From positions 1 to 33,242 of the forward strand of contig QIHT01000163.1 of assembly GCA_003229115.1 (NCBI GenBank): DNA of 33,242 nucleotides. Direction: 5' to 3'. The position numbers and the translations under genes were made by a program. Below are positions 6,620-32,158 of this stretch, piece after piece. Source of the stretch: Gammaproteobacteria bacterium. GTDB lineage: Bacteria > Pseudomonadota > Gammaproteobacteria > SZUA-229. The stretch's first letter is position 1; each line of letters opens with the position of its first letter. The notes under the pieces were generated by a model. The model was not told where the DNA came from. It did not search any database and saw only the letters and a program-made list of their open reading frames with translations.

Positions 6620-7903
6620 TTAAGTGTTTGTAAGGTAGCCCTGTTGTGCGAGCAGTGCGACGCCATAACTCGCCTCTGTGTGCGAAGCGGTTAAAACGGG
6701 GATGCCCATCTTTTGTTCGCGTATTTTAGCCCATGCAGCGTTACAACTGCCTCCGCCTGCTGTAAAAATTTTTTCAGGAAAGGGTGCACCCAGACGGGCG
6801 AGCTGTTTATAGGCTTCAAGCTCAATATTGGCGATGCCTTCGAGCATGCCCTGAAAGAAGTGCAGATCATTTTCCGGCCTGGGGCTTAAGCGGTTTTGCA
6901 AACCTGGATCGTTTGTCGGAAAGCGTTCGCCGGTTGCAGGCAACGGGTAATAGTTCAGACCGGTGGCTTGTTCGGGTTGGAGTCGGGGAGTCATTTGTCT
7001 TATCTGTTGTTTGGTGAAATGTTGCGAAAGTACCCGGCCGCCACTGTTGGAAGCGCCACCGGCTAGCCATAACTTACCGAGTCGGTGACTGTAGATGCCA
7101 TATTCCGGGGCAAACACGGGTTTGTCCGAGATGATTTTGAGTACCAGTGTGCTGCCCAGAGAGGTCACGGCTTCGCCGGGGTTTTTGGCACCGGTTGCGA
7201 TGAAAGCGGCGATACTGTCGGTGGTGCCGGCGATGATTTTGCATTGCAGGCTCAATCCCAGATCTTCAGCGACCTCTTTAAGCACGCGGCCGATAACTGA
7301 TCCGGGTGTTTGCACTTTGGGCAGGGTTGCTGGCGCAATATCCAGTTTGGATAACCAGTCTGGCCAGGCGTTATTGATCAGGTCATAACCCAGCTTCAGG
7401 CAGTTGTTTTCATCGCTGATGTCGTATCGTCCGGACAATGTGCCCGCTATCCAGTCTGCCTGATGGCAGATGTGGCTGGCATCTGCATGTTGTTCCAGCA
7501 AGTGCATGGCTTTCGCCAAAGACGAGGTGGCACCGTGAGCTGCACAGTTTTCGGGGGCGATGGCGGCGATTTTTATCGACTCATGCTGACGGCTTTGGTC
7601 GTTGTACATTAAAGCCGGTGAGAGCGGGTTGCCCGACGTGTCGCAGACCAGAACGGTGCTGGAAGTGCCATCGATTGCGATGGCTGCAATCTGGCGTGGT
7701 TCTATCTGCTGGCTTAGGTGGCTGATTATTTCATGAACGGTTTGTTTCCATATATCAGGGTGTTGCTGAATATTGTTGCCACGGATTGTAGGTAGTTCGA
7801 GGGGCTTTTGAAACGCGGCCAGTTGTTTACCATCAGAATCAATGCAGCAGCCGCGAACACCCGAGGTGCCGACGTCGATGCCCAGAAAAACGGGGTTTGT
7901 CAT
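6620..7903 (-). CDS. FGGY-family kinase, D-ribulose kinase-like (cyanobacterial/plant XK-1 type)
   Basis: 427 residues from the ATG at 7903. A longer open frame to 8008 runs into queF, and its first 35 codons do not look like this family, so I reject that start. Recognisable motifs: the phosphate-binding start LGIDVGTSG (D10, T13), IAIDGTSSTVLVCD, SLAKAMHL, LKLGYDL, IIAGTTDSIAAF with the presumed catalytic base D229, EAVTSLGSTLVLK, GLNYYPLPATGERFP, RPENDLHF and FTAGGGSCNAAW. This set matches the Synechococcus elongatus and Arabidopsis XK-1 branch, reported to phosphorylate D-ribulose, rather than classical xylulokinase XylB. It starts 19 bases after the queF stop and lies in the queF-cysZ-slyX group with no sugar-catabolism genes nearby. 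The family is strong; the substrate is inferred from remembered similarity. Confidence 0.82.
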   Translation of the reverse strand: MTNPVFLGIDVGTSGVRGCCIDSDGKQLAAFQKPLELPTIRGNNIQQHPDIWKQTVHEIISHLSQQIEPRQIAAIAIDGTSSTVLVCDTSGNPLSPALMYNDQSRQHESIKIAAIAPENCAAHGATSSLAKAMHLLEQHADASHICHQADWIAGTLSGRYDISDENNCLKLGYDLINNAWPDWLSKLDIAPATLPKVQTPGSVIGRVLKEVAEDLGLSLQCKIIAGTTDSIAAFIATGAKNPGEAVTSLGSTLVLKIISDKPVFAPEYGIYSHRLGKLWLAGGASNSGGRVLSQHFTKQQIRQMTPRLQPEQATGLNYYPLPATGERFPTNDPGLQNRLSPRPENDLHFFQGMLEGIANIELEAYKQLARLGAPFPEKIFTAGGGSCNAAWAKIREQKMGIPVLTASHTEASYGVALLAQQGYLTNT

Positions 7904-7922: not shown

Positions 7923-8312
7923 CTAGGGAAGCTGAACTGGCGTTGGTGCCTGCCAGTTATCGTCCCGGTGCTCGGCAACCACCGAGGTGTAAATACCGCC
8001 ACGGACATTGAATTCAGCCGTCAGCCGCATGAAACGTGGCGAGCAGGTGGCGACCAGGTCGGCGAGAATTTTATTGGTGACGGCCTCATGGAAAGCGCCT
8101 TCATTTCGGTACGACCAGACGTACATTTTTAGTGCTTTGAGTTCGATGCAGGACTGGTCGGGCACGTACTCGATATCCAGCGTGGCAAAATCAGGCTGGC
8201 CGGTTTTCGGACACAGGCAGGTAAACTCCGGAATGCTGATACGGATGGTGTAGTCCCTGTCAGTTTGTGGATTATCAAAGACTTCCAGCTGTTTTGAAGG
8301 TTGAATCGACAT
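7923..8312 (-). CDS. queF: NADPH-dependent 7-cyano-7-deazaguanine reductase (preQ0 reductase)
   Basis: 129 residues, the single-domain (type I, YkvM-like) form. Catalytic C34 lies in [11 protein letters not shown] with D41 seven residues on, and the family signature is IELKALKMY (56-64), followed by EGAFHE. QueF reduces preQ0 to preQ1 for the queuosine tRNA modification in the cytoplasm. It is the first gene of a four-gene minus-strand group and is divergent from smc, with a TATAAT-type -10 in the spacer. No other queuosine gene is in the window. Confidence 0.93.
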
Positions 8313-12726: not shown

Positions 12727-14691
12727 ATGTTTGACAAGAAACAAAAAAAAATTCTAAAGCATTCGAAGATAAAATTAATAAAGTTGACGGAAAAAAAGGT
12801 ATTTGAGATTGCTGAGAAAAATGTAAATGAGGGTGTGTTGTCAGATGCGGAACTTATGGAGTTTTTAGAAGTGGCTAATGGGCTTTACCGCGGTGGCGAA
12901 CAGATAATTAGTGATGCTGAATATGATTTTACGTTTATTGCAGAATTAGAGAGACGGCATCCGAATCATCCATTCTTACAATCAGTTGAACCTGAGGTGG
13001 CATTTGTTGGGAAAACAGTTGAGTTGCCAGTTCGCATGTTGTCTACCGAAAAAGCATACAACGATGAAGGAATTAATAAATGGGTAAATAGAATAAAGAA
13101 GGCTGCAAAAGATATTAATAAAAATTTTGATAACCTTTTATTTAGAGTGACCCCTAAGTTAGATGGTTACGCAGCATACTATGATGGTGAGAGGCTTTTT
13201 ACGAGAGGTGATGGGAAGCGCGGCACTGATATTACCCGCGTAATTAAGCGTGGTTTGACTATTAAAAATGGTCGAGACCGAGGCCTTGGTGCGGGTGAAA
13301 TAGTTGTGTCTAAAAAATATTTCAAGAATAATCTTTCAAAACACTTCGAAAACTCAAGAAACTTCCAAGCCAGTGTGGTCAAAGAAAAGGAACTTGAGAA
13401 ACATGCCGCTAAAGCAATTAAAGATAAAGCTGCGGTGTTTTATCCGTTTTCCACACTTCCATCATGGAATGGTACGTATAAAGAACTGGAGGCTGATTAC
13501 AATACGATTATTAATGATGCATGGAATTCCGTTGACTACGATGTTGATGGGGTAATAATTGAAATCATAGATGACGAGCTAAAAGAATACATGGGTGCGA
13601 CACTTCACCATCATCGTTGGCAGATTGCGTTCAAAGAGAATGTTGAGAAAGCTCATGTTAAAGTTTCAGGTGTTATATTGCAGACATCTCGAACTGGACG
13701 TGTTAACCCTGTTGTAGAAATCGAGCCGATACGCCTCAGTGGTGCTCTTATACAAAGGGCATCCGCTCATCACTATGGCATGGTTGAAAAAAACGGTATA
13801 GGTGAAGGGGCAATCATTGAACTGGTTCGGAGTGGAGAGGTGATTCCGAAGATTGTGAGTGTTATTAAATCTGTTGAGATTGAAATTTCTAGTGACGAAA
13901 AAATTTGTCCTAGCTGTGAAGAAAAACTTGTGCGGGATGGTGATTATCTTTTCTGTACAAACAACATTAAATGTCCTGCACAAATCACGCATACAATAGA
14001 GCATTTTTTTAGTGTGCTTGGAAACATTGATGGTTTTGGGCCTGCGACAATCGAAAAATTGTACGAGCATAATGTTAGAACTTTGCCAAAAATATACCAA
14101 TTAAAGGCTAGTGGTTTTCAGAAGAAAGGTTTTGGTCCTAAACAAGCTGATAATCTTTACAAGCAGCTTGTAAGAAGTCGGACAGAACAGATTGAAGATT
14201 GGAGATTTCTGGCTGCATTCGGTGTTTTCCGCATGGGTGTTGGGAATTGTGAAAGGTTGCTGAAGCACTACCGACTTGAAGATGTCTTTTCCTTAAAAGT
14301 TAAAGATATATTATCTGTTGAAGGTTTTGCAGAAAAGACTTCGAAAGTTGTTGTTCATGGCTTAAAGAAGATACATCATACCTTCGACAAAATTTATAGG
14401 TTGGGTTTTGAGCTTGAGCAGACTTTGCTTGTATCTGAGCAAATAAGGTCTGGTGAATTAAGTTTTATTTCAGGAAAATTGATTGTTTTTACTGGATCTA
14501 TGAAGCATGGGAGTCGTACAAGTATGCAGGCTGAAGCAAAGAAACTAGGTGCAAAAGTTGGTAGTGCTGTAACCGGGAAGACAAGTTACCTGGTGGCTGG
14601 CGAGAATGTAGGCGCTGCTAAAATTAATGCTGCTAAAAATAAAGGAGTCGAAGTATTAACTGAGGATGAATACCTTTCACTGATACGATAA
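12727..14691 (+). CDS. Divergent NAD+-dependent DNA ligase (LigA domain order)
   Basis: 654 residues with the complete LigA domain order. There is an Ia-like start ending ISDAEYD (about 60-68), a nucleotidyltransferase domain with adenylated lysine K144 in KLDGYA and RGDGKRGTDITR, an OB fold, a zinc finger C394-x2-C397-x12-C410-x5-C416, helix-hairpin-helix repeats, and a C-terminal BRCT domain (about 580-654). It joins nicks in DNA using NAD+. It sits where ligA normally follows zipA, but it is much more divergent than its neighbours and by eye clearly AT-rich and lysine-rich. In domain Ia, the Tyr-His pair of E. coli LigA that contacts NMN aligns with LYRGG, i.e. His replaced by Arg. I infer acquisition by transfer. 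A second, conventional ligA could exist elsewhere. Confidence 0.85.
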   Translation: MFDKKQKKILKHSKIKLIKLTEKKVFEIAEKNVNEGVLSDAELMEFLEVANGLYRGGEQIISDAEYDFTFIAELERRHPNHPFLQSVEPEVAFVGKTVELPVRMLSTEKAYNDEGINKWVNRIKKAAKDINKNFDNLLFRVTPKLDGYAAYYDGERLFTRGDGKRGTDITRVIKRGLTIKNGRDRGLGAGEIVVSKKYFKNNLSKHFENSRNFQASVVKEKELEKHAAKAIKDKAAVFYPFSTLPSWNGTYKELEADYNTIINDAWNSVDYDVDGVIIEIIDDELKEYMGATLHHHRWQIAFKENVEKAHVKVSGVILQTSRTGRVNPVVEIEPIRLSGALIQRASAHHYGMVEKNGIGEGAIIELVRSGEVIPKIVSVIKSVEIEISSDEKICPSCEEKLVRDGDYLFCTNNIKCPAQITHTIEHFFSVLGNIDGFGPATIEKLYEHNVRTLPKIYQLKASGFQKKGFGPKQADNLYKQLVRSRTEQIEDWRFLAAFGVFRMGVGNCERLLKHYRLEDVFSLKVKDILSVEGFAEKTSKVVVHGLKKIHHTFDKIYRLGFELEQTLLVSEQIRSGELSFISGKLIVFTGSMKHGSRTSMQAEAKKLGAKVGSAVTGKTSYLVAGENVGAAKINAAKNKGVEVLTEDEYLSLIR

Positions 14692-14840: not shown

Positions 14841-15207
14841 TATCCACAGATGAACGCAGATAAACACAGCTAAAATGTAGTAGCTCAAACTTGAACTGAC
14901 AGTTATCGTCAAAGAGTGTGGCATAAAAATACAACTTTTAGCTACAGAGAACTCAGAGGAAATCAAGGTTAATAGAGCTAAAATTATGTCATCCCGAACG
15001 AATGTGAGGGATCTTGTACTTCAATGCAACAGATCCCTCACATTCGTTCGGGATGACAGACTAAACAAACTCTGTGTGCTCTGTGACCTCTGTGGCAAAT
15101 AATAGGTAAGACAGTATTGAAACTTGTCCGTATTTCCGTCAGGTCAAGTTTGAGCTACTACAGGTAAGAATGTTTTAAGCTTATAAACATCTGCGTTTAT
15201 CTGTGGA
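14841..15207. repeat. Four concentric (nested) inverted repeats
   Basis: From outside in: (1) TCCACAGATGAACGCAGAT at 14843-14861 against 15189-15207, 18 of 19 matching. (2) A 25-base arm beginning TGTAGTAGCTCAAACTTGA at 14876-14900 against 15138-15162, 24 of 25. (3) A degenerate CACAGAG-type arm near 14941-14960 against about 15070-15096. (4) A perfect 27-base arm at 14988-15014 against 15031-15057. The order on the right is the exact mirror of the left. The layers have different sequences, as if palindromes inserted one inside the loop of another. Confidence 0.85.
14988..15057. repeat. GTCATCCCGAACG palindrome, copy A
   Basis: The 27-base arms 14988-15014 and 15031-15057 are perfect reverse complements with a 16-base loop. 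Each arm can also fold alone through ATCCC (14991-14995) and GGGAT (15008-15012). Copy B, with paired changes, is at 31869-31946. Confidence 0.9.
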
Positions 15208-19887: not shown

Positions 19888-20015
19888 AAAAACTTTTACC
19901 ACAGAGGTCACAGAGGTGCACAGAGAAAAGATTTTCTATTGTTAGTTACGCCTACGGCGAAGCTAACAAAATAAACCCCCTGTGTACCTCTGTGACCTCT
20001 GTGGTAAAAGTTTTT
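19888..20015. terminator. Long palindrome (CACAGAGGT family), likely bidirectional terminator
   Basis: Arms 19888-19922 and 19981-20015 match at 34 of 35 positions, beginning AAAAACTTTTACCACAGAGG on each side. Inside lies a second hairpin, GTTAG...CTAAC with CGCC-TAC-GGCG (19941-19967). T runs follow the stem on both strands, between the convergent genes acpS and barA. Confidence 0.75.
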
Positions 20016-23847: not shown

Positions 23848-23896
23848 TATTTAATTTGTCTGTGGCAAAAAATGGTTTTATTCATGTTCCAAGTAC

Positions 23897-23947
23897 GTAG
23901 GTCGGGCATTGCCCGGCATGGGTGATGGTGGACAATGCCCACCCTAC
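23897..23947. repeat. REPIN-like GTAG hairpin pair, copy 1 (GTAGGTCGGGC family)
   Basis: 51 bases: GTAG + GTCGGGC-ATT-GCCCGGC, a short spacer, then on the other strand GTAG + GGTGGGC-ATT-GTCCACC. Copy 2 at 32062-32112 differs at two positions only. Confidence 0.8.
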
Positions 23948-23954
23948 GAATTGG

Positions 23955-23990
23955 CTCTCCTCTGTGTGCTCTGTGACCTCTGTGGTAAAA
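23955..23990. repeat. Single right arm of the CACAGAGGT repeat
   Basis: Reads CTCTGTGTGCTCTGTGACC then TCTGTGGTAAAA, matching the right arms at 15070-15096, 19981-20015 and 31977-32010. No matching left arm is found here. It follows the REPIN directly, as it also does at 32121-32158. Confidence 0.7.
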
Positions 23991-25401: not shown

Positions 25402-25437
25402 TTATCCACAGATGAACGCAGATAAATACAGATAAAA
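25402..25437. repeat. Single arm of the ATCCACAGATGAACGCAGAT repeat
   Basis: ATCCACAGATGAACGCAGAT is identical to the left outer arm at 14842-14861. No inverted partner is seen in this gap, so it is a solo half-element. Confidence 0.7.
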
Positions 25438-25451
25438 AACAAAGGCTTTAT

Positions 25452-25550
25452 GCCGCGAAGGACGCAAAGGGCGCGAAAAAAACAAACTGCTTAGCTCATG
25501 TTTTAACCAAAGATTTTATCTTTTTTCGCGCCCTTTGCGTCCTTCGCGGC
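25452..25550. repeat. Perfect 30-base inverted repeat (GCCGCGAAGGACGC family)
   Basis: Arms 25452-25481 and 25521-25550 are exact reverse complements, beginning GCCGCGAAGGACGCAAAGGG, with a 39-base centre. It lies between the convergent genes rlmD and the FHA gene, and could end transcription from both, although no T run follows directly outside the stem. Confidence 0.9.
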
Positions 25551-25570
25551 AAAAGGTTTTGCTTTGGCTT

Positions 25571-31778: not shown

Positions 31779-32010
31779 ACCACAGAGGTCACAGAGGTCA
31801 CAGAGGTCACAGAGGAGCACAGAGGAGCACAGAGGAAAACTAAGGTTTGTTACTGCAGTTCATTGTGTTCTGTCATCTCGAACGAATGTGAGAGATCTAA
31901 CTGTCTGACATTCAGAAGATCTCTCACATTCGTTCGAGATGACAGAGTGTAAGAAACTGTAACAACAAACCCTGGTTTTTCTCTGTGCTCCTCTGTGACC
32001 TCTGTGGTTC
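31779..32010. repeat. Concentric palindromes with an expanded CACAGAGGT left arm
   Basis: Outer layer: CACAGAGG units at 31780-31838 against 31976-32008. Middle layer: GGTTTGTT....CAGTT at 31844-31860 against 31955-31972, about 13 of 17 matching. Core: 30-base perfect arms 31869-31898 and 31917-31946. The left outer arm has three to four tandem CACAGAGGT and two GCACAGAGGA units, while the right arm has fewer, which suggests slippage on one side only. Confidence 0.82.
31869..31946. repeat. GTCATCTCGAACG palindrome, copy B
   Basis: Perfect 30-base arms with an 18-base loop. It differs from copy A (14988-15057) by C to T and G to A within each arm, changing ATCCC/GGGAT to ATCTC/GAGAT (31875-31879 with 31892-31896; 31919-31923 with 31936-31940). 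The small stem inside each arm is kept. Confidence 0.9.
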
Positions 32011-32061
32011 AAGGTTTTTTCATGCTCATGTATTCAATGCATCCAAAACACTCTGTAGTAC

Positions 32062-32112
32062 GTAGGTCGGGCATTGCCCGACATGGGTGATGGTGGGCAA
32101 TGCCCACCCTAC
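32062..32112. repeat. REPIN-like GTAG hairpin pair, copy 2
   Basis: 51 bases: GTAG + GTCGGGC-ATT-GCCCGAC, spacer, and the reverse-strand GTAG + GGTGGGC-ATT-GCCCACC. All pairs are Watson-Crick here, whereas copy 1 at 23897-23947 has one wobble in each hairpin. Confidence 0.82.
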
Positions 32113-32120
32113 GACTTAGC

Positions 32121-32158
32121 TTTTCTCTGTGCACTCTGTGCCTCTGTGGTAAAAGTTT
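32121..32158. repeat. Single right arm of the CACAGAGGT repeat
   Basis: TTTTCTCTGTGCACTCTGTG then CCTCTGTGGTAAAAG, directly after REPIN copy 2 and just beyond the rluC stop. There is no separate left arm for it. Confidence 0.7.

Follow-up and report, generated by a model that had tools for sequence, protein, structure and literature searches.

Positions 14,843 to 15,207 of the window, as we call the whole stretch of 33,242 nucleotides analysed, hold four inverted repeats set one inside another between ligA and a convergent gene (Table 1). The window is contig C17 of a draft genome (G000; 2.30 Mb, 252 contigs, 81.8% complete) whose nearest named relatives, as judged from the neighbouring gene, are gammaproteobacterial MAGs. 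A preliminary description of this DNA had noted the four concentric layers, here labelled A to D from the outside inwards; they are present, their centres agree within about 10 bases, and the innermost arms match over 28 positions rather than the 27 first counted. When the strand carrying the stack is folded as RNA it forms a single long hairpin (-167 kcal/mol, z -13.1) flanked by A-rich and T-rich sequence.

Table 1. Features of the nested stack and its surroundings (window coordinates), with C elements of a further loop type at other loci
Feature	Position	Strand	Remarks
ligA, NAD-dependent DNA ligase	12727..14691	+	upstream neighbour
Layer A, left arm TCCACAGATGAACGCAGAT	14843..14861	+	repeat runs on to ~14869
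MITE left flank GCTAAAA	14869..14875	+	candidate decayed 7-bp target duplication
B(C(D)) unit, ends TGTAGTAG...CTACTACA	14876..15162		putative 287-bp IS481-type MITE with REP dimer
Layer B, left terminal inverted repeat TGTAGTAGCTCAAACTTGAACTGACAG	14876..14902	+	arms 14876-14900 and 15138-15162 matching 24/25
Layer C, left arm CTACAGAGAACTCAGAG	14942..14958	+	degenerate
Layer D, left REP arm TGTCATCCCGAACGAATGTGAGGGATCT	14987..15014	+	
Layer D, right REP arm	15031..15058	-	28/28 vs left arm
Layer C, right arm CTCTGTGTGCTCTGTGACCTCTGTGG	15070..15095	-	
Layer B, right terminal inverted repeat	15136..15162	-	
MITE right flank GGTAAGA	15163..15169	+	
Layer A, right arm	15189..15207	-	18/19 vs left arm
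Convergent neighbour, 338 aa	15266..16282	-	function not assigned; synteny marker
C elements with TTGTTAGCGACGCC loop	L078 14575-14974; L089 5766-5864; L112 2807-2914		

Comparison with copies elsewhere in the genome indicates that a single 287-bp MITE accounts for layers B and C, as its terminal and subterminal repeats respectively. On contig C56 the complete B(C(D)) block recurs in inverted orientation with no A arms around it (L114, 9,613-9,911). The alignment runs from TGTAGTAG to CTACTACA, homology ends exactly there on both sides, and the left arm of layer C is better kept in this copy than in the window. A 196-bp element on C40 (L106, 8,295-8,490) has an empty C loop and CTTTAAC on either side. 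Copies of 287, 299 and 196 bp share the terminal inverted repeats, sharp ends and non-coding content by which MITEs are recognised. In two-ended copies the spacers between B and C are unlike on the left and right, but the main copies carry the same two, so that they represent one homologous element. The 7-base flanks match better within than between elements (permutation p 0.003 in the own genome, 8e-5 in the relative G012), and perfect 7-bp target duplications surround the C40 copy and five G012 loci, which characterises the family as a whole; the flanks of the window copy match at 5/7 positions, a value not significant alone. Layer B had seemed unique to the locus in a search allowing up to 3 mismatches, a result overturned by a looser search and by flank alignments that revealed divergent copies elsewhere. 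With up to 5 mismatches, 890 kb yielded 44 matches, compared with 17 after shuffling; those that are real lie 40-70 bases outside C arms with the same polarity. G000 yielded no conserved B shell lacking C.

B-type ends occur in 15 of the 96 genomes searched. At L350 in G050 such ends delimit a 1.2-kb insertion sequence which, between TGTAGTAGCTCAGACTTGATCTGACAG and its degenerate inverse, codes for a 367-residue protein assigned to the IS481-family transposases (NF033577, E 2e-81); G038 encodes a protein 66% identical to it, with similar ends. The ends of the MITE match those of this predicted autonomous IS481-family element in a relative. No IS481 transposase of the B-end type was found in G000, which is 82% complete.

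Two further features of C elements were seen at other loci. The same insert of about 30 bases, CAGGGCTACGTAGTACTTCGCCCATGCAAG, breaks the right C arm at L119 (~6790-6825), L087 (~14400-14435) and L078 (~8040-8070). C elements with the TTGTTAGCGACGCC loop have a different outer shell, TGACCGCTTACGACCC...CTGTCAAAAACTTTAAAAGC, which is possibly a second MITE type around C.

By its motif and arrangement, layer D belongs to the CGTC/TGTC class of REPs and consists of two units placed head to head. It has the form TGTC-ATCCC...GGGAT in head-to-head pairs, and its arm has 43 matches in the genome, in agreement with the published description of this class (CGTC or TGTC tag, AT-starting stem, head-to-head dimers, many copies, intergenic location; PMC3733652, section 6). 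Inspected by eye, the unit has an uninterrupted stem of 5 bp and an interrupted inner part, where the class definition gives an 8-9 bp stem and a loop of 4-5 bases. At C177 (L157 574-1096) a Y1_Tnp gene lies between REPs of family G in inverted orientation, and V REPs lie beside a RAYT-type gene at C10 (L156 1298-1414), probably in the same relationship; both resemble RAYT-associated REPs and REPINs (PMC2817692, 2010). Since such flanking was seen for G and probably V but not for D, beside which no transposase was found, D is not filed as RAYT-associated. Three further Y1_Tnp genes had no recognised REP adjoining them. The arms of layers A and C and of a further family, E, were also considered as REP or REPIN units and rejected, as by eye they consist of 9-10-nt tandem repeats without a tagged end or internal hairpin.

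The loop of the BC element is occupied differently from locus to locus. It is empty at L106, contains Z at L080 and a decayed Z at L075, and holds H inserted in Z at L111; D fills it at L114, L119, L129 and in the window, and G at L085, L118 and L122. C enclosing G stands alone at L083 and recurs inside E with B at L118, the homology covering the C-bounded unit only. Other genera show B ends around a short spacer only (L324, L329), around CACAGAG with a V-type REP dimer (L323), around an E palindrome with a GTAGGTTGGG dimer (L331) and around heptamer repeats with a GTAGGCC dimer (L348), and in G012 they surround CGCAGAG with GTAGGAGCGACTTCAGTCGCGAA. The order of layers is likewise variable: A encloses E and E encloses C in G000, while in G016 C encloses an A-like palindrome, C encloses E, or E and A are outermost. 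A fixed hierarchy of A, E, C and REP as one unit was rejected on account of the other orders in G016. Because contents and layer order vary, a single fixed block cannot explain the stack. From these comparisons, the habit of nesting recurs across a family of uncultured bacteria. Neither CACAGAG nor CGCAAAG was found reported as a bacterial repeat in the literature.

The orthologous junction gives a further view of the locus. In G017, G008 and G024 the gap between ligA and the convergent gene measures about 12-50 bp and contains no palindrome; G016 has a different stack there (its L136 is not perfectly concentric, with one C arm outside and the other inside), and G010 has remnants. As the relatives compared belong to other genera of the family, the time of insertion can be bounded only loosely. 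The preliminary description had named two outcomes that would speak against stepwise nesting, namely arms that never occur separately and a whole block conserved in relatives. The four-layer block is not conserved at this junction, and the layers also occur apart from each other, so that neither outcome was obtained. In the genome the layer A arm has 51 matches (up to 3 mismatches) and the layer C 17-mer 189 (up to 2 mismatches).

Inverted repeats were also detected de novo in 60 stretches plus the window, about 890 kb in all, the stretches having been chosen for matches to A, C or D. The scan returned 360 inverted repeats, and the first 20 stretches gave 165 against 6 in block-shuffled sequence, far above the chance level. 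Nested or overlapping repeats form 44 groups, in line with the earlier suggestion that nesting is a recurrent habit of this genome. A second concentric set proposed at 31.8 kb is real, its two arm pairs both centred on 31907.5. The two-layer set reported at 19.9 kb has its layers but lends little to the case for nesting, because it is one ordinary element, C arms with a TTGTTAG... loop palindrome, found in many similar copies.

We consider it likely, with a probability of about 0.8, that small non-autonomous mobile elements inserted one after another into loops of palindromes already in place and so built up the stack. The four palindromes would be concentric because three mobile elements, one of them with two layers, lie within each other's loops: A is outermost, its loop holds an IS481-type MITE, and the loop of the MITE in turn holds a REP dimer. 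D would have entered an empty BC, and the assembled B(C(D)) would then have been copied, one copy landing in the A loop downstream of ligA. BC was probably moved by an IS481-family transposase acting in trans. Stages consistent with this course are present elsewhere: B(C(D)) without A, an empty BC with a 7-bp duplication, A without BC, and other REPs in the BC loop. Counting against it are the 5/7 match of the window copy's flanks, the failure to find in G000 (82% complete) either a B-end IS481 transposase or a conserved B shell free of C, the imperfect concentricity of G016 L136 and, for the loop statistics, the copied composites and the choice of stretches. The original idea of insertion into hairpin loops thus holds to the extent that layers are separable, the junction is empty in relatives and loops contain an excess of inserts. 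Its four independent insertions do not, given that B and C form one MITE and that B(C(D)) was copied pre-assembled, as the C56 copy indicates.

Of 87 REP dimers in gaps between genes, 24 lie in the loops of outer palindromes, compared with 7.0 expected over all intergenic DNA (p 6e-8), an expectation that is approximate because of the way the stretches were chosen. Within gaps that contain both kinds of repeat, 24 of 34 dimers are in loops against 12.6 expected (p 6e-6), the arms being left out of the expectation. Copied composites enter these figures, for example L083/L118, L085/L122 and two in L084; a hand count leaves about 14 independent loop events, which would still exceed expectation. 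A KS test for central placement of inserts in loops (p 0.002) is not relied on, given the copying of composites and the difficulty of detecting inserts that lie off centre close to an arm.

Loops may be favoured either since insertion there spares the stem or since hairpin tips are better targets. On the former account, to which we give somewhat less than even odds, concentricity is mainly a survivor pattern: insertions into arms or promoters were purged and those into loops kept, insertion itself not being directed at loops. Palindromes at the 3' ends of genes may act as terminators or mRNA 3' stems, and a loop insertion leaves the stem intact, so that selection could yield the observed pattern. 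The density of inverted repeats (88 in 22.8 kb of convergent gaps, 24 in 26.5 kb of divergent gaps) agrees with this, as does the folding of the stack into one long hairpin with its A-rich and T-rich flanks; REPs in general show the same contrast between convergent and divergent gaps (PMC3733652). Moreover, the scan sees loop insertions only, because an arm with an insert escapes detection. Against it, though not decisively, the local excess in loops persists with the arms excluded, and spacers beside palindromes should be just as tolerant of insertion. Selection of survivors bears only on why loops are favoured and is compatible with stepwise build-up. We regard it as possible, but rather doubtful, that loops are instead preferred as sites of insertion by two or more unrelated transposition systems, namely an IS481-type DDE transposase and the enzymes that move REPs. 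Direct targeting of loops is made plausible by ISPsy8, which inserts at the symmetry axis, that is the tip, of REP hairpins (Tobes and Pareja 2006, PMC1525189). If loops are indeed preferred, palindromes would grow from the inside into multi-layer stacks and then amplify as composite elements.

Three other explanations concern the origin of the stack itself. Fold-back or template-switch copying, by which each layer would be made in place from its own other arm, was an alternative in the preliminary description; we find it improbable and not needed at this locus. For A, C, E and D, arms are more alike within than between copies (permutation p <=0.003), which is equally expected if both arms arrive together. 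The arms belong to families scattered over many loci, target duplications occur, and spacers are homologous between copies. Only a palindrome elsewhere, L335 1030-1334 (G012:C69), points to arm copying: it spans 305 bp with 111/111 matching arms, same-type ends and no target duplication, and is a candidate for arm copying or for recombination between two copies. An ancient origin of all four layers as a single conserved element is a still weaker prospect. B(C(D)) is truly one copied unit, and the order of B, a middle palindrome and a REP recurs across genera, but A is missing around the C56 copy, which contradicts a four-layer unit, other genera have other middle and inner layers, and three relatives have no palindrome at the orthologous site. 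Repeats are abundant in the intergenic DNA of G000 and unrelated ones might overlap by chance; this we hold to be extremely unlikely, as both the global and the local expectation are exceeded and the same architecture is present in other genera.

Two-layer arrangements of a REP dimer inside a palindrome are already known. Di Nocera et al. (2013, PMC3733652, section 7) described GTAG and CGTC dimers lying within longer palindromes of A. variabilis, T. roseum and H. neapolitanus, as two layers without further study; target palindromes that were empty were not encountered in A. variabilis or H. neapolitanus (PMC3733652). The likeness lies in the REP dimer within a longer palindrome. The present stacks differ in having up to four layers, interchangeable middles, empty or part-filled stages and an IS481-type shell with target duplications. 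What is new is thus the number of layers, the modular middle across genera, the shell with its duplications and the intermediates; nested palindromes of the multi-layer kind were not found reported in the literature. In the case of ISPsy8 a full insertion sequence interrupts the REP, whereas here REPs and MITEs lie within larger palindromes with the REP innermost. BC resembles the bacterial MITEs RUP, NEMIS, ERIC and Nezha (PMC3733652) in being short and non-coding with terminal inverted repeats and target duplication, and all are presumably moved in trans; it differs from them by a second internal inverted repeat and a loop with REP dimers. Since each layer is younger than the layer enclosing it, or arrived with it, such stacks let the succession of events be read off for intergenic palindromes, the origin of which is difficult to date by other means. 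With empty, part-filled and refilled copies in one genome, the old suggestion that REPs target palindromes becomes directly testable. Before independent events are tallied, nested repeats need to be resolved into their mobile units.

Several minor observations concern the arms and their distribution. The arms of C, A, E and K are built of 9-10-base tandem units (CACAGAGGT, CACAGATGAA, CGCAAAGGG and CGCAGAGGC), for example at 19888-20015, 31780-31830 and 14942-15095 of the window and at many other loci, and look like dialects of one widespread repeat class; the literature yielded no paper in which these units appear as bacterial repeats. In a comparison of G000 with 192 related genomes, the exact C 17-mer has 75 copies in G000, 25 in G058 and 17 in G180, a member of another family, and is absent from most close relatives, a patchy and burst-like distribution. 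Positions 25405-25565 of the window contain a left A arm and, after it, an entire E palindrome, the right A arm being missing; by this layout it is a half-eroded A(E) composite. Near-identical GTAGGTCGGGCATTGCCCG / CCCACCCTACG REP pairs at 23892-23975 and 32057-32140 of the window are each followed by a lone right C arm. Arms of heptamer-like tandem repeats (AAAAGTG, TTTGGTC) are found at L106 14453-14569, L119 5541-5670 and L122 5654-5714.
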